Positions 15,634 to 19,250 of a stretch of 64,000 nt of DNA are shown here, piece after piece. Origin of the DNA: Aporhodopirellula aestuarii (GTDB lineage Bacteria > Planctomycetota > Planctomycetia > Pirellulales > Pirellulaceae); assembly GCF_023701485.1 (NCBI RefSeq), contig NZ_JAMQBK010000032.1, forward strand, positions 1-64,000, written 5' to 3'. The translations under genes were made by a program, and so were the position numbers. Each line of letters opens with the position of its first letter. The stretch's first letter is position 1. The notes under the pieces were generated by a model. That model was not told the origin of the DNA. It did not search any database and saw nothing but the letters and a program-made list of their open reading frames with translations.

Positions 15634-16671
15634 ATGACGCAAGGTCCTTCTCGCCGTCAGATTCTCGGCGCCGCCACTGCCACCGGTTTGCTCAGCGGCA
15701 TGCATCACGGCCGATCGGCTTTTGCAGCCGAGACACACGCCGGCAGATCGTCTGCCGAATCGAGCAACGATCCCACGTCTCGTGCATCGATATCAATGCC
15801 GAAAATTTCGCTCAACACGAGTACCATCCGGGGACATCAATTATCTGTTCCCGAACAAATTCGGGTCACCGCCGACGCGGGTTACGACGCGATCGAACCG
15901 TGGATCAAAGACCTTCGCGGCTTTGTCGATAGCGGTGGAAAACTCTCGGATCTAAAAAGGCAGCTCGATGATTCCGGTATCGGAATCGCCGGCGCGATCG
16001 GGTTCGCCAAATGGATCGTCAACGATGCCCAGGAACGTCAAGCGGGACTCGATGAAGCCCGGCGGGACATGGAGATGGTCCGCGAACTCGGCGGGGTAGT
16101 TATGGCGGCGCCACCGATCGGCGCCCACAACGAAACCGCCCTGCGGGACTCGGGACCGATTGAATTGGAAGTGATTGCCGAACGCTACCGAGCATTGCTC
16201 GAAATCGGGGATGAAGTGGGTGTCACACCGCTGCTCGAGTTATGGGGTTTCTCCCCCACGCTCAGCCGACTCGGCGAGTTGGCCTATGTGTCGACGGCGG
16301 CAGCACACCCCAGCGCCGCGGTATTGCCTGATTTTTATCACATCTATAAAGGCGGCAACTCGATGACATCGCTCGCGATGATCGAAGCGTCGCGGATGCC
16401 TCTCTTTCACATCAACGACTATCCGGACCAACCGCCGCCGGCCACGATCGCCGATAAAGATCGGGTATTCCCAGGCGACGGAGTCTGCCCGCTCGTCGAT
16501 ACGATCACGATGCTATTGAACAACGGATTTGCGGGAACCTTTTCGCTCGAATTATTCAACCCCGAATATTGGAAGCGGCCAGTCGGCGAAGTCACCCAAG
16601 AAGGTTTTACAAAATCAAAAGCCGTGATCGAACAGGCCGTCGTCAAGGCAACCGCAAACTCGCGATCGTAA
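15634..16671 (+). CDS. Tat-exported sugar phosphate isomerase/epimerase-like TIM-barrel protein
   Basis: A 345-aa protein with a twin-arginine leader (SRRQILGAATATGLLSGMHH), so it should be exported folded. The mature part is an AP-endonuclease-2/xylose-isomerase-like TIM barrel: LNTSTIRGH start, E at the end of strand LLELWGF, D and H in VLPDFYHIYKGG, H in FHINDYPD, and the final E in FSLELFNPEYW, the expected metal-ligand positions. Members next to DUF1080 hydrolases are proposed to handle 3-keto or epimerised sugars. It ends 29 bases inside the convergent gene on the other strand. The family is secure, the substrate is not. Confidence 0.9.
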   Translation: MTQGPSRRQILGAATATGLLSGMHHGRSAFAAETHAGRSSAESSNDPTSRASISMPKISLNTSTIRGHQLSVPEQIRVTADAGYDAIEPWIKDLRGFVDSGGKLSDLKRQLDDSGIGIAGAIGFAKWIVNDAQERQAGLDEARRDMEMVRELGGVVMAAPPIGAHNETALRDSGPIELEVIAERYRALLEIGDEVGVTPLLELWGFSPTLSRLGELAYVSTAAAHPSAAVLPDFYHIYKGGNSMTSLAMIEASRMPLFHINDYPDQPPPATIADKDRVFPGDGVCPLVDTITMLLNNGFAGTFSLELFNPEYWKRPVGEVTQEGFTKSKAVIEQAVVKATANSRS

Positions 16672-17914
16672 ACGGTATCTGTTGTTGCTCGGTCTGGTAA
16701 TGCGACCGGACAATATCCATGTCGATTTCGGCTCGCCAGCGAGCCTCCTCGATGGTCAGCGAGCGGAGTTCCTTGAGTGGCCTCTTATACAAATCGACTG
16801 CACCGGTTTTTTGACCACACTCGACGCCGAGATCAAACGCAGACTGTAGAAATCCTGGAATGCGATAGGGTTCCGGATAAACGTGTGCCATTAAAAACTT
16901 GAACACATGGTACTGGATCCGACTGATTTTTTTCGCCGTTCCCATCGCGAACCCGAGCACGAAGGCTTCGTCCTGGTCTTGCAAGCCGCGTCCCAACAGC
17001 ACATGCAGCACATCATGATCGTGCAAATCGATGGCGCCCCGAAATCGGATCGGACTGGTGGGATTTTCGAACAACCGGACGATCCAAGGGATTGCGGTCG
17101 CGGGCGCCGCGGGCATCGAACGGATCACTTCATCGACGGTCCGCTGATCGTCATCCACGCCGGGATACCACGCCAACCACAGGTCGGTATCAGTGTAAGA
17201 ATCACGTGAGCGGCCGTGCTCGTCGAACAGCCATGCACTGGTATCGAATAGGCTCAAAATCGATTCGGGACGAGGATGATTCGTTGCCGTGATCACGGCC
17301 GCTGAGGCAACCCGATTGAGACAATCCAACACGATGCCTTCGGCATCGAGAGTTAACGCAGGATCGGAATCAACCGGCGTCTGGTAACGGGCGAACGCGT
17401 CGGTGATTTCCTGAACGGCTTCACGTGACCACTGCCGCAGCGTTTTCTGGTTGTTCGCTCGATAGTCCGATTTGAGCAAGCCGGCATGGTTGGCGGCGCG
17501 AATAATAGCGAGCGTCCACGCGACCTCGGCCCGCTCCGCCGTCGCCCGTCCGGAACCTCCCCGAGGCGAGTCAGATCCCTCAACCGGTTCACCAGAAACG
17601 GCAATCACACACTGCCATGCGTCATTCACGTTTTCGATCTGTTGCGAAATCACATGCAACGGTTTGCGACAAATCTGCGAGATGACAGCAACGATTGCCG
17701 CGACCTCGGTTTCGCCGCTGGCGACGAGCAACGTGCCGCCGCACGAATCCGGTTCGACGTCGCGATCGGTTTCGATTGATTGGGAACTGAGTTTTTTAAT
17801 TCGCAAACTGCACTGGACGGGCCCGGGCGGTGATTTCGCGATCGTCACGTCGCGTACCTCCACCATCGCGACACGCAGGGGCAGAGCTCGTGCTTGCAGA
17901 GGATCGACGGACAT
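16643..17914 (-). CDS. Uncharacterised protein with a Coq4-type HDxxHx11E metal motif
   Basis: A 423-aa soluble protein; an alternative start at codon 17 gives 407 aa. The N-terminal 120 residues (mixed alpha/beta) and the central helical part have no recognised domain. The C-terminal third contains H300-D301-x2-H304-x11-E316, the exact spacing of the Zn-binding motif of Coq4, a ubiquinone-biosynthesis protein, set in a helical context (VLHVLLGRG...EAFVLGFAMG) also like Coq4. Planctomycetes generally use menaquinone, so a ubiquinone role is doubtful and this may be a repurposed Coq4-like fold. The 3' end overlaps the convergent isomerase gene by 29 bases. Confidence 0.8.
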   Translation of the reverse strand: MSVDPLQARALPLRVAMVEVRDVTIAKSPPGPVQCSLRIKKLSSQSIETDRDVEPDSCGGTLLVASGETEVAAIVAVISQICRKPLHVISQQIENVNDAWQCVIAVSGEPVEGSDSPRGGSGRATAERAEVAWTLAIIRAANHAGLLKSDYRANNQKTLRQWSREAVQEITDAFARYQTPVDSDPALTLDAEGIVLDCLNRVASAAVITATNHPRPESILSLFDTSAWLFDEHGRSRDSYTDTDLWLAWYPGVDDDQRTVDEVIRSMPAAPATAIPWIVRLFENPTSPIRFRGAIDLHDHDVLHVLLGRGLQDQDEAFVLGFAMGTAKKISRIQYHVFKFLMAHVYPEPYRIPGFLQSAFDLGVECGQKTGAVDLYKRPLKELRSLTIEEARWRAEIDMDIVRSHYQTEQQQIPFTIASLRLP

Positions 17915-18176: not shown

Positions 18177-19250
18177 ATGACCAAGCCAAAATCGTTTGAA
18201 TCAATCCGCCGGATCGTTTTGTGCTACCCGGTGGAGCCGCATCACATCGTGCAGATCAAACAGACCCTGACTGACTGTCTGAATGACGACGCGATTCCAC
18301 TGGATCATGAAGTTGAAGTCGTCGATGCGGGCCAGGAACGCATCGATCAACTGTTGCCGACCGCCGACATTTTCATTGGCCATGCGAAAGTTCCGGTCGA
18401 TTGGGACCGCGCCCTCGCGGCAAAGCGTCTGCAGTGGATTCAGTCGTCGGCGGCGGGTCTCGATCATTGCCTTGTGCCTGGCGTCATCGCCGAACCTCGG
18501 ATCGTGGTCAGCAGCGCGTCGGGACTATTCGCTCCCCAGGTCGCCGAGCAAACCTTTGGGCTGCTGTTCGGACTGCTGCGACGGATCGGATTATTCGAAC
18601 GGGCCCGGCAAATCCCTGAATTCATTCGTCGCCCTACCGACGACTTACGTGGCAAAACCGTCGGAATTGTCGGACTGGGCGGCAACGGACGCGAAATCGC
18701 CAAGATGCTGCGGCCTTGGGAAGTTCGAATTTTGGCGACCGATTTCTACCCTGAGAACCAACCCGACGAAGTCGACGCACTGTGGTCAGCAGATCGGACG
18801 GACGAATTGTTCGCCGCTTCGGATATCGTAATCCTGACGCTGCCGCTGAATCAGTCGACCCATCACTGTGTTTCGGAAACGCAGCTTTCTGCGATGAAAC
18901 CGGGCGGCTATTTGGTCAACGTGGCACGGGGTGCGGTCGTCGACGAAGCCGCCCTGGTCGCGGCTCTCGCGAGCGGGCATTTGGCGGGGGCGGGGGTCGA
19001 TGTGACCGGGTTCGAACCGTTGCCGCCGTCGAGCCCGTTGTGGACCGATCCGAACGTCTTGATCACGCCCCACGTGGGCGCTCAATCGTTTCGCCGGGTC
19101 GACGACACGACTGATCTGGTTTGTATCAACCTCCGACGCTACTTTGCAGGTCTACCGCTGTACAACCGCGTTGACAAAACCCTCGGTTTTCCCCACCCGA
19201 GCGTTTCGTATCGGGTTGCCGGCGCCGAATCGGATGATTCGCAAAAATAA
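18177..19250 (+). CDS. D-2-hydroxyacid dehydrogenase family protein
   Basis: A 357-aa NAD(P)-dependent dehydrogenase. The nucleotide loop is VGIVGLGGNGREIAKML (about residues 160-176), the catalytic Arg lies in VNVARGAVVDE, the Glu in TGFEPLPPSSPLW, and the active-site His in TPHVGAQSF. Length is slightly above the usual 310-330. The GLGGNG loop differs from the usual GxGxIG only in the fifth position. A second, divergent member of the same superfamily lies at 56041-57024. The substrate cannot be told from the sequence; family relatives act on phosphoglycerate, glyoxylate/hydroxypyruvate or lactate. Confidence 0.9.
   Translation: MTKPKSFESIRRIVLCYPVEPHHIVQIKQTLTDCLNDDAIPLDHEVEVVDAGQERIDQLLPTADIFIGHAKVPVDWDRALAAKRLQWIQSSAAGLDHCLVPGVIAEPRIVVSSASGLFAPQVAEQTFGLLFGLLRRIGLFERARQIPEFIRRPTDDLRGKTVGIVGLGGNGREIAKMLRPWEVRILATDFYPENQPDEVDALWSADRTDELFAASDIVILTLPLNQSTHHCVSETQLSAMKPGGYLVNVARGAVVDEAALVAALASGHLAGAGVDVTGFEPLPPSSPLWTDPNVLITPHVGAQSFRRVDDTTDLVCINLRRYFAGLPLYNRVDKTLGFPHPSVSYRVAGAESDDSQK

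Follow-up and report, generated by a model that had tools for sequence, protein, structure and literature searches.

COQ4 is a disease gene, and according to the accessible part of PMC11495197 the chemistry of its product was assigned only recently. For the Nostoc homologue Alr8543, the accessible part of PMC9774615 names the residues H120, D121, H124 and E136; the same text describes the solved Coq4 homologue with Mg2+, zinc being an earlier proposal. Our searches of the literature on Coq4-like and Coq4-family proteins found no description of the family presented here, and searches on Coq4 in phage or virus genomes and on the isopropylmalate synthase regulatory domain in planctomycetes found nothing. 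A search on phage proline dehydrogenase as an auxiliary metabolic gene pointed only to work on a giant virus. A second known system that matters here is the regulatory fold of LeuA and citramalate synthase, which dimerises and binds an amino acid.

The gene that we analyzed is located on the minus strand of the window, i.e., the whole stretch of 64,000 nucleotides under study. The two-domain architecture of its product is well supported, and the features are as follows:

16643..17914, minus strand: two-domain protein of 423 aa with an ATG start; 16643-16645 is the stop codon
17480..17878, minus strand: LeuA-type regulatory domain of strands and helices, residues 13-145 (AF2, VIA-align, hhalign)
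17228..17464, minus strand: linker of predicted helices, residues 151-229, with a conserved RANNQK motif (152-157)
16646..17227, minus strand: Coq4-like helical domain, residues 230-423 (AF2, VIA-align, hhalign), which is also found on its own in proteins of about 150-217 aa
16967..17017, minus strand: putative metal site H300, D301, H304 and E316 within HDVLHVLLGRGLQDQDE, residues 300-316

At its 3' end, the gene shares 29 bp with the end of a convergent gene (15634-16671, plus strand); another gene, on the opposite strand, starts at 18177. The orthologues of R. rubra (L001) and R. sallentina (L002) have the same start and end as the open reading frame in the window.

HDVLHVLLGRGLQDQDE is the sole match to HDxxHx11E in the six frames of the 64-kb window. 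The motif arose in 13 of 20,000 shuffles of the window protein, and the chance of finding it in a single protein is therefore small but not nil. We regard it as genuine because it is conserved across the family, the shuffles alone leaving some room for chance. An earlier note on this DNA had described the motif, as H300-D301-x2-H304-x11-E316 in a helical region, and this description was borne out: the match is exact, and in the AF2 model of residues 230-423 its two halves are located on successive helices (model residues 68-78 and 84-96). The four residues, for which a lack of conservation among orthologues had been considered, proved to be conserved instead. They are kept in all five full-length proteins and are invariant in 46 of the 46 aligned family members (alignment A5), a count favoured by the fact that the viral rows were retrieved with peptide patterns from the motif region. 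The motif is also kept in the rows found without such patterns, namely two planctomycete rows found with a profile, and those of a Streptomycetaceae strain and Nostoc found with tblastn. Altogether, the invariant positions of the 46-row alignment are E283, P285, G293, L297, H300, D301, H304, G310, D315, E316, A317, F318, G321, M324 and G325.

Another explanation is that the helical domain has a non-catalytic, structural or scaffolding role, the motif being kept for folding or for protein contacts. COQ4 itself has been regarded as a scaffold (accessible part of PMC8969065), and a relative encoded on a plasmid of Chondrocystis (25.5%, E 6e-4; L015 6025-6687) has lost the motif, reading HERLH plus an insertion; nature thus provides in it a way to test the need for the metal site. 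Such a role is unlikely in our judgement, since the four would-be ligands are invariant throughout an alignment in which some members are only 27% identical to the window protein.

The C-terminal half was poor in the first full-length AF2 model, which was based on a shallow alignment, and the domain was refolded from 46 sequences (A5). The resulting model of residues 230-423 is all helical, with a mean pLDDT of 92.3 and a pTM of 0.89. When this model was compared with the PDB using Foldseek, ranks 1 and 2 were taken by the Coq4 protein Alr8543 (E 0.36 and 0.43; probability 0.85 and 0.87), and the other 48 among the matches listed had probabilities of 0.09 or less; on their own, the E-values for Alr8543 are not significant. 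With VIA-align, the domain model matched 6e12 (Alr8543) with a Z of 6.7 over 117 residues and an rmsd of 3.9; for a helical protein, however, this Z is only middling, and according to the tool's own warning a common arrangement can produce such a value. The second match was 3msq (Z 5.6), and the next chain, unrelated to Coq4, had a Z of 2.9. Hence, when the predicted fold was compared with that of Coq4, the latter was the closest solved match. Model residues 26-170 are aligned with chain residues 78-216, which fits a register in which motif residues 71, 72, 75 and 87 of the model would correspond to H120, D121, H124 and E136 of Alr8543.

Profile comparison gave a similar picture. Using hhalign, A5 was aligned with six Coq4 proteins with a probability of 80.4% and an E-value of 1.3e-5 for the pair, the HD motifs being aligned. 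The six reference rows are plasmid-borne proteins out of eight regions fetched, and all six score above the Pfam cut-off. None of the 46 members reaches the gathering cut-off of PF05019 (Coq4; 22.9 bits), and in the scan of these members the domain did not attain the cut-off of any Pfam family. Sub-threshold matches to this family were found in 10 of the 46, which makes it the most frequent family, with a best E-value of 0.011; the two members for which Coq4 scores were shown had 13.3 and 15.4 bits. The window protein itself had no match to Pfam Coq4 at E 10. A PDB sequence search with the domain profile placed 3msq third with a non-significant E-value of 1.7, and a fold search of BFVD gave nothing at E 0.001. 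Residues 230-423 are thus Coq4-like but are not filed in PF05019, because no member reaches the Pfam cut-off and 3msq came only third at E 1.7. Neither NCBIfam nor PHROG gave a match for the window protein. Two candidates were set aside for it: Pfam Sec6, a chance match (E 0.26), and MenH, the PDB sequence search having given only chance matches.

The earlier note held the N-terminal part to be unrelated to Coq4; a pairing control confirmed this, and we could identify this part as similar to the LeuA regulatory domain. The full-length AF2 model is mostly confident at residues 13-145 only and has low confidence in the linker, where 31 of the 79 columns are invariant among the five full-length proteins. 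According to VIA-align, residues 13-145 resemble M. tuberculosis LeuA (3hpz; Z 11.4, rmsd 2.7, 111 residues aligned) and the LiCMS regulatory domain (3f6g; Z 10.9), and the next unrelated row has a Z of 6.0. The structure titles among these matches include LeuA with leucine and LiCMS with isoleucine. When the five N-terminal sequences were compared with 13 planctomycete LeuA domains, hhalign gave a probability of 51.6% (E 1.5e-4) for an in-register alignment spanning 77 columns (residues 63-142); two unrelated pairings gave 0.1% and 0.2%. At E 10, PF08502 (LeuA_dimer, cut-off 24.9 bits) had no match at this locus and matched only two other loci of the genome (C142 and C96). Where real LeuA has GDGP, the window protein has GETE and that of R. 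rubra GESP, and the GxGP signature of the first LeuA_dimer repeat is absent from the window protein; the ligand, if any, may therefore differ. Among the five full-length proteins, residues 13-150 are 28-59% identical to the window protein with 19 of 138 columns invariant, versus 71-88% identity and 117 of 194 invariant columns for the C-terminal 194 residues. Judged from this difference and from the GETE sequence, the LeuA-type domain may even have lost ligand binding.

We also screened the genome for markers of quinone synthesis. The VitK2_biosynth family (MqnA/MqnD of the futalosine route) has two matches in the genome; no COQ7 was found above the cut-off (best E 0.126), and Pfam Coq4 had no match across the genome at E 10. 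These findings fit the earlier remark that planctomycetes usually make menaquinone rather than ubiquinone. As judged from the markers searched (COQ7, Coq4 and VitK2_biosynth), ordinary ubiquinone synthesis is unlikely in this organism. Since the organism seemingly uses menaquinone, the Coq4-like protein is unlikely to serve that pathway. A genuine Coq4 function, i.e., the C1 oxidative decarboxylation of a ubiquinone-type precursor, would agree with the fold and the motif; given the Pfam scores of the family and the quinone markers of the genome, we consider it very improbable. The earlier reading of the domain as a repurposed Coq4 fold is partly supported: the structural proximity to Coq4, the conserved residues and the menaquinone markers all agree with it.

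The full-length protein has a narrow distribution. It was present in 4 of 60 genomes (the own genome and relatives), namely G000, G001, G003 and G012, which all belong to the window's genus (13 of the genomes searched). In a scan of genome contigs with the full-length query, R. rubra gave a match with 73% identity over its best segment, R. sallentina one with 64% and a metagenome bin one with 65%. The matches of G003 and G012 have the same positions on equally numbered contigs as those of R. rubra and R. sallentina, from which we take the window's genus to be Rhodopirellula; outside this genus, the full-length protein was seen only in the bin. A search of 392 genomes of the phylum with the full-length profile added two genomes (G063 and G076) that contain the C-terminal domain only, and the domain profile detected the domain in 3 of the 392, the own genome included. 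With the G076 protein as tblastn query, plasmid-encoded stand-alone relatives were identified in a Streptomycetaceae strain (39.5%) and in Nostoc sp. HK-01 (43.1%); the diverged Chondrocystis relative came from this search as well. The Streptomycetaceae plasmid has two matching places (L013 5983-7494), and the first gene there is followed by a second hypothetical gene of 609 bp; an AarF/ABC1/UbiB gene lies beyond the latter on the other strand. Besides its stand-alone relative, G076 carries a second, different Coq4-like protein of 161 aa (L032 1300-1785) with the sequence HDMHH...GE, which scores 22.1 bits against the Pfam cut-off of 22.9.

Viral contigs were scanned as well. The full-length profile found no relative (46 stretches); the fusion was therefore not seen in viruses. 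The domain profiles yielded 16 and then 44 loci, encoding 40 distinct proteins that all contain the motif, a figure biased by search patterns drawn from the motif region. The family has a signature of its own, HDxxHxLLGRGLxxxDEAFxxGxxMG. In a phylogenetic tree, the five fused proteins group together with a support of 1.0, and their tie to the viral proteins of L016 and L035 is weak (0.54). Two viral members had no relative among annotated phages at E 0.1, and a planctomycete member had a single match at E 1. None of the seven proteins scanned against PHROGs (the window protein and six members) had a match better than E 0.064, the matches of the six members being weak and to short families of unknown function.

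The flanking genes in R. rubra and R. sallentina match those of the window, and those of L003 and L007 differ (by eye). Inspection by eye of the Rhodopirellula loci revealed no conserved operon partner, the neighbours varying between lineages, and no PutA or proline dehydrogenase was recognised in their lists of open reading frames. In the metagenome bin (L003 1996-4454), the full-length gene is flanked divergently by genes that, by eye, resemble those of an aldehyde dehydrogenase and a microcompartment shell protein.

At 7 of the 44 viral loci, a full PutA abuts the Coq4-like gene (gap 0), in both gene orders: it is located downstream in L017, L018, L019, L036, L037 and L038, and upstream in L021. 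The Coq4-like proteins of L017-L019 are identical, and a scan of the PutA of L021 showed that it contains Pro_dh and Aldedh. Examples of these PutA genes are:

L017 4983-8359: viral PutA abutting the Coq4-like gene
L036 4983-8362: viral PutA abutting the Coq4-like gene
L021 2028-5485: viral PutA abutting the Coq4-like gene

By clustering and by eye, we assigned a separate proline dehydrogenase (PRODH) at a distance of 0.7-1.8 kb at five further loci (L022, L023, L028, L039 and L040) and an aldehyde-dehydrogenase-type PutA relative at 1.2-2.6 kb at four (L029, L031, L048 and L058). In the fetched DNA, neither PutA nor PRODH is present at 32 of the 44 loci, and none of the three types at 28. Reciprocal searches found the Coq4-like gene at 7 of 13 viral PutA loci and at 6 of 34 viral PRODH loci, both counts leaning towards co-occurrence because the query rows were taken from Coq4-like loci. 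Judged by contig names, five further PRODH contigs carry a Coq4-like gene elsewhere, which brings the total to 11 of 34. The Coq4-like gene is missing from six PutA loci, among which L109 is cut at the PutA start and L111 soon after the PutA end. Among 50,697 phage records, PutA was found at a coverage of at least 80% in two and PRODH in seven; these records and the viral loci are different collections, so that the comparison can serve only as a guide. One phage group may account for most of the PRODH loci, and the link to PRODH may reflect shared phage ancestry. The phages of L053 and L055 look T4-like by eye, with the Coq4-like gene among structural and replication genes.

Two further observations concern these viral regions. 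A membrane-type protein of 73-95 aa is encoded downstream of the Coq4-like gene, mostly abutting, at 21 of the 44 loci (e.g., L022 5570-5794); a single one was scanned, and it gave a match to the end of the NMN transporter family. Directly upstream of related viral PutA genes there are stretches of about 400-455 bp (L111 5547-6001, L112 2122-2577, L113 5546-6001 and L116 5599-6001) in which no ATG open reading frame of at least 55 aa was called, overlapping frames having been dropped; in the L017 group, the Coq4-like gene occupies this position.

For a role outside ubiquinone synthesis, there are two readings. In one, the protein is a Coq4-like metal protein that binds lipids and acts on, or carries, a prenylated molecule other than ubiquinone, such as a menaquinone precursor, a carotenoid or another isoprenoid. 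The proline dehydrogenase of PutA passes its electrons to quinone, which would agree with this, and the Streptomycetaceae copy has an ABC1/UbiB-type gene more than 1 kb away on the opposite strand. According to the accessible parts of PMC9774615 and PMC11495197, Alr8543 was solved with geranylgeranyl monophosphate (an entry since replaced) and with oleic acid, and the human COQ4 protein reportedly carries out the oxidative decarboxylation of CoQ precursors; the accessible part of PMC8969065 describes a COQ4 paralogue co-expressed with the plant naphthoquinone (shikonin) pathway. Against this reading, the gene is patchy within its genus (4 of 13 genomes) and rare in the phylum, which argues against core menaquinone synthesis, and amino-acid enzymes adjoin it at part of the viral loci. 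We consider a prenyl-lipid role possible, though on the doubtful side.

We modestly favour a role in amino-acid metabolism, on account of two weak and independent hints, namely the adjacency to PutA or PRODH and the presence of a domain whose known representatives bind amino acids. The protein would be a fusion of a LeuA-type regulatory domain (residues 13-145) and a divergent Coq4-fold domain (residues 230-423), in which a divalent metal is most likely bound by H300, D301, H304 and E316, beside a pocket that would accept a small or prenylated substrate. The Coq4-like domain could then be a metal-dependent enzyme of amino-acid metabolism, or a substrate- or quinone-binding partner in it. Some stand-alone versions would work beside proline dehydrogenase or PutA. 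In Rhodopirellula, a small ligand, perhaps an amino acid, would act at the LeuA-type domain to set activity or assembly. The computation itself shows the two folds, the conservation of the motif, the distribution among genomes and viruses, the PutA or PRODH neighbours at part of the viral loci and the outcome for the quinone markers searched; metal binding, catalysis, substrate and ligand control are inferred in this proposal. We give not quite an even chance to its general form, in which a divergent metal protein with the Coq4 fold and a LeuA-type control domain acts elsewhere than in ubiquinone synthesis, probably in the metabolism of amino acids. Its most specific form is rather unlikely; it supposes an unnamed Coq4-fold metalloenzyme family of amino-acid catabolism, which acts beside a quinone-linked PRODH in phages and is under allosteric control by the LeuA-type domain in Rhodopirellula.

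If the proposal is true, a Coq4 fold acts far from ubiquinone and is switched by a small metabolite. A compact relative in phages and in apparent menaquinone bacteria would reveal the role of HDxxHx11E beyond the CoQ complex and might lend itself more readily to assays, and in the fusion the LeuA-type regulatory module would have been put to a new use.

Compared with Coq4/COQ4 (PF05019; 6e12 and 3msq), the domain shares the all-helical fold over about 117 residues, with the C-terminal part in register, as well as HDxxHx11E and a glycine four residues past the second H. It differs in that its family remains below the Pfam cut-off, has its own signature, is fused here to a LeuA-type domain and occurs in a genome without COQ7 above the cut-off. 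The N-terminal domain shares with LeuA_dimer (PF08502; 3hpz and 3f6g) of 2-isopropylmalate and citramalate synthases the fold over 110-116 residues (Z 10.8-11.4), but it is below the Pfam cut-off, has an altered GDGP and is joined to a Coq4-like domain instead of a TIM-barrel synthase. PutA/proline dehydrogenase (PF01619), a neighbour at 12 of the 44 viral loci, has no homology to the Coq4-like protein. The Coq4 fold was already known; new here is a Coq4-fold family with a new partner domain.
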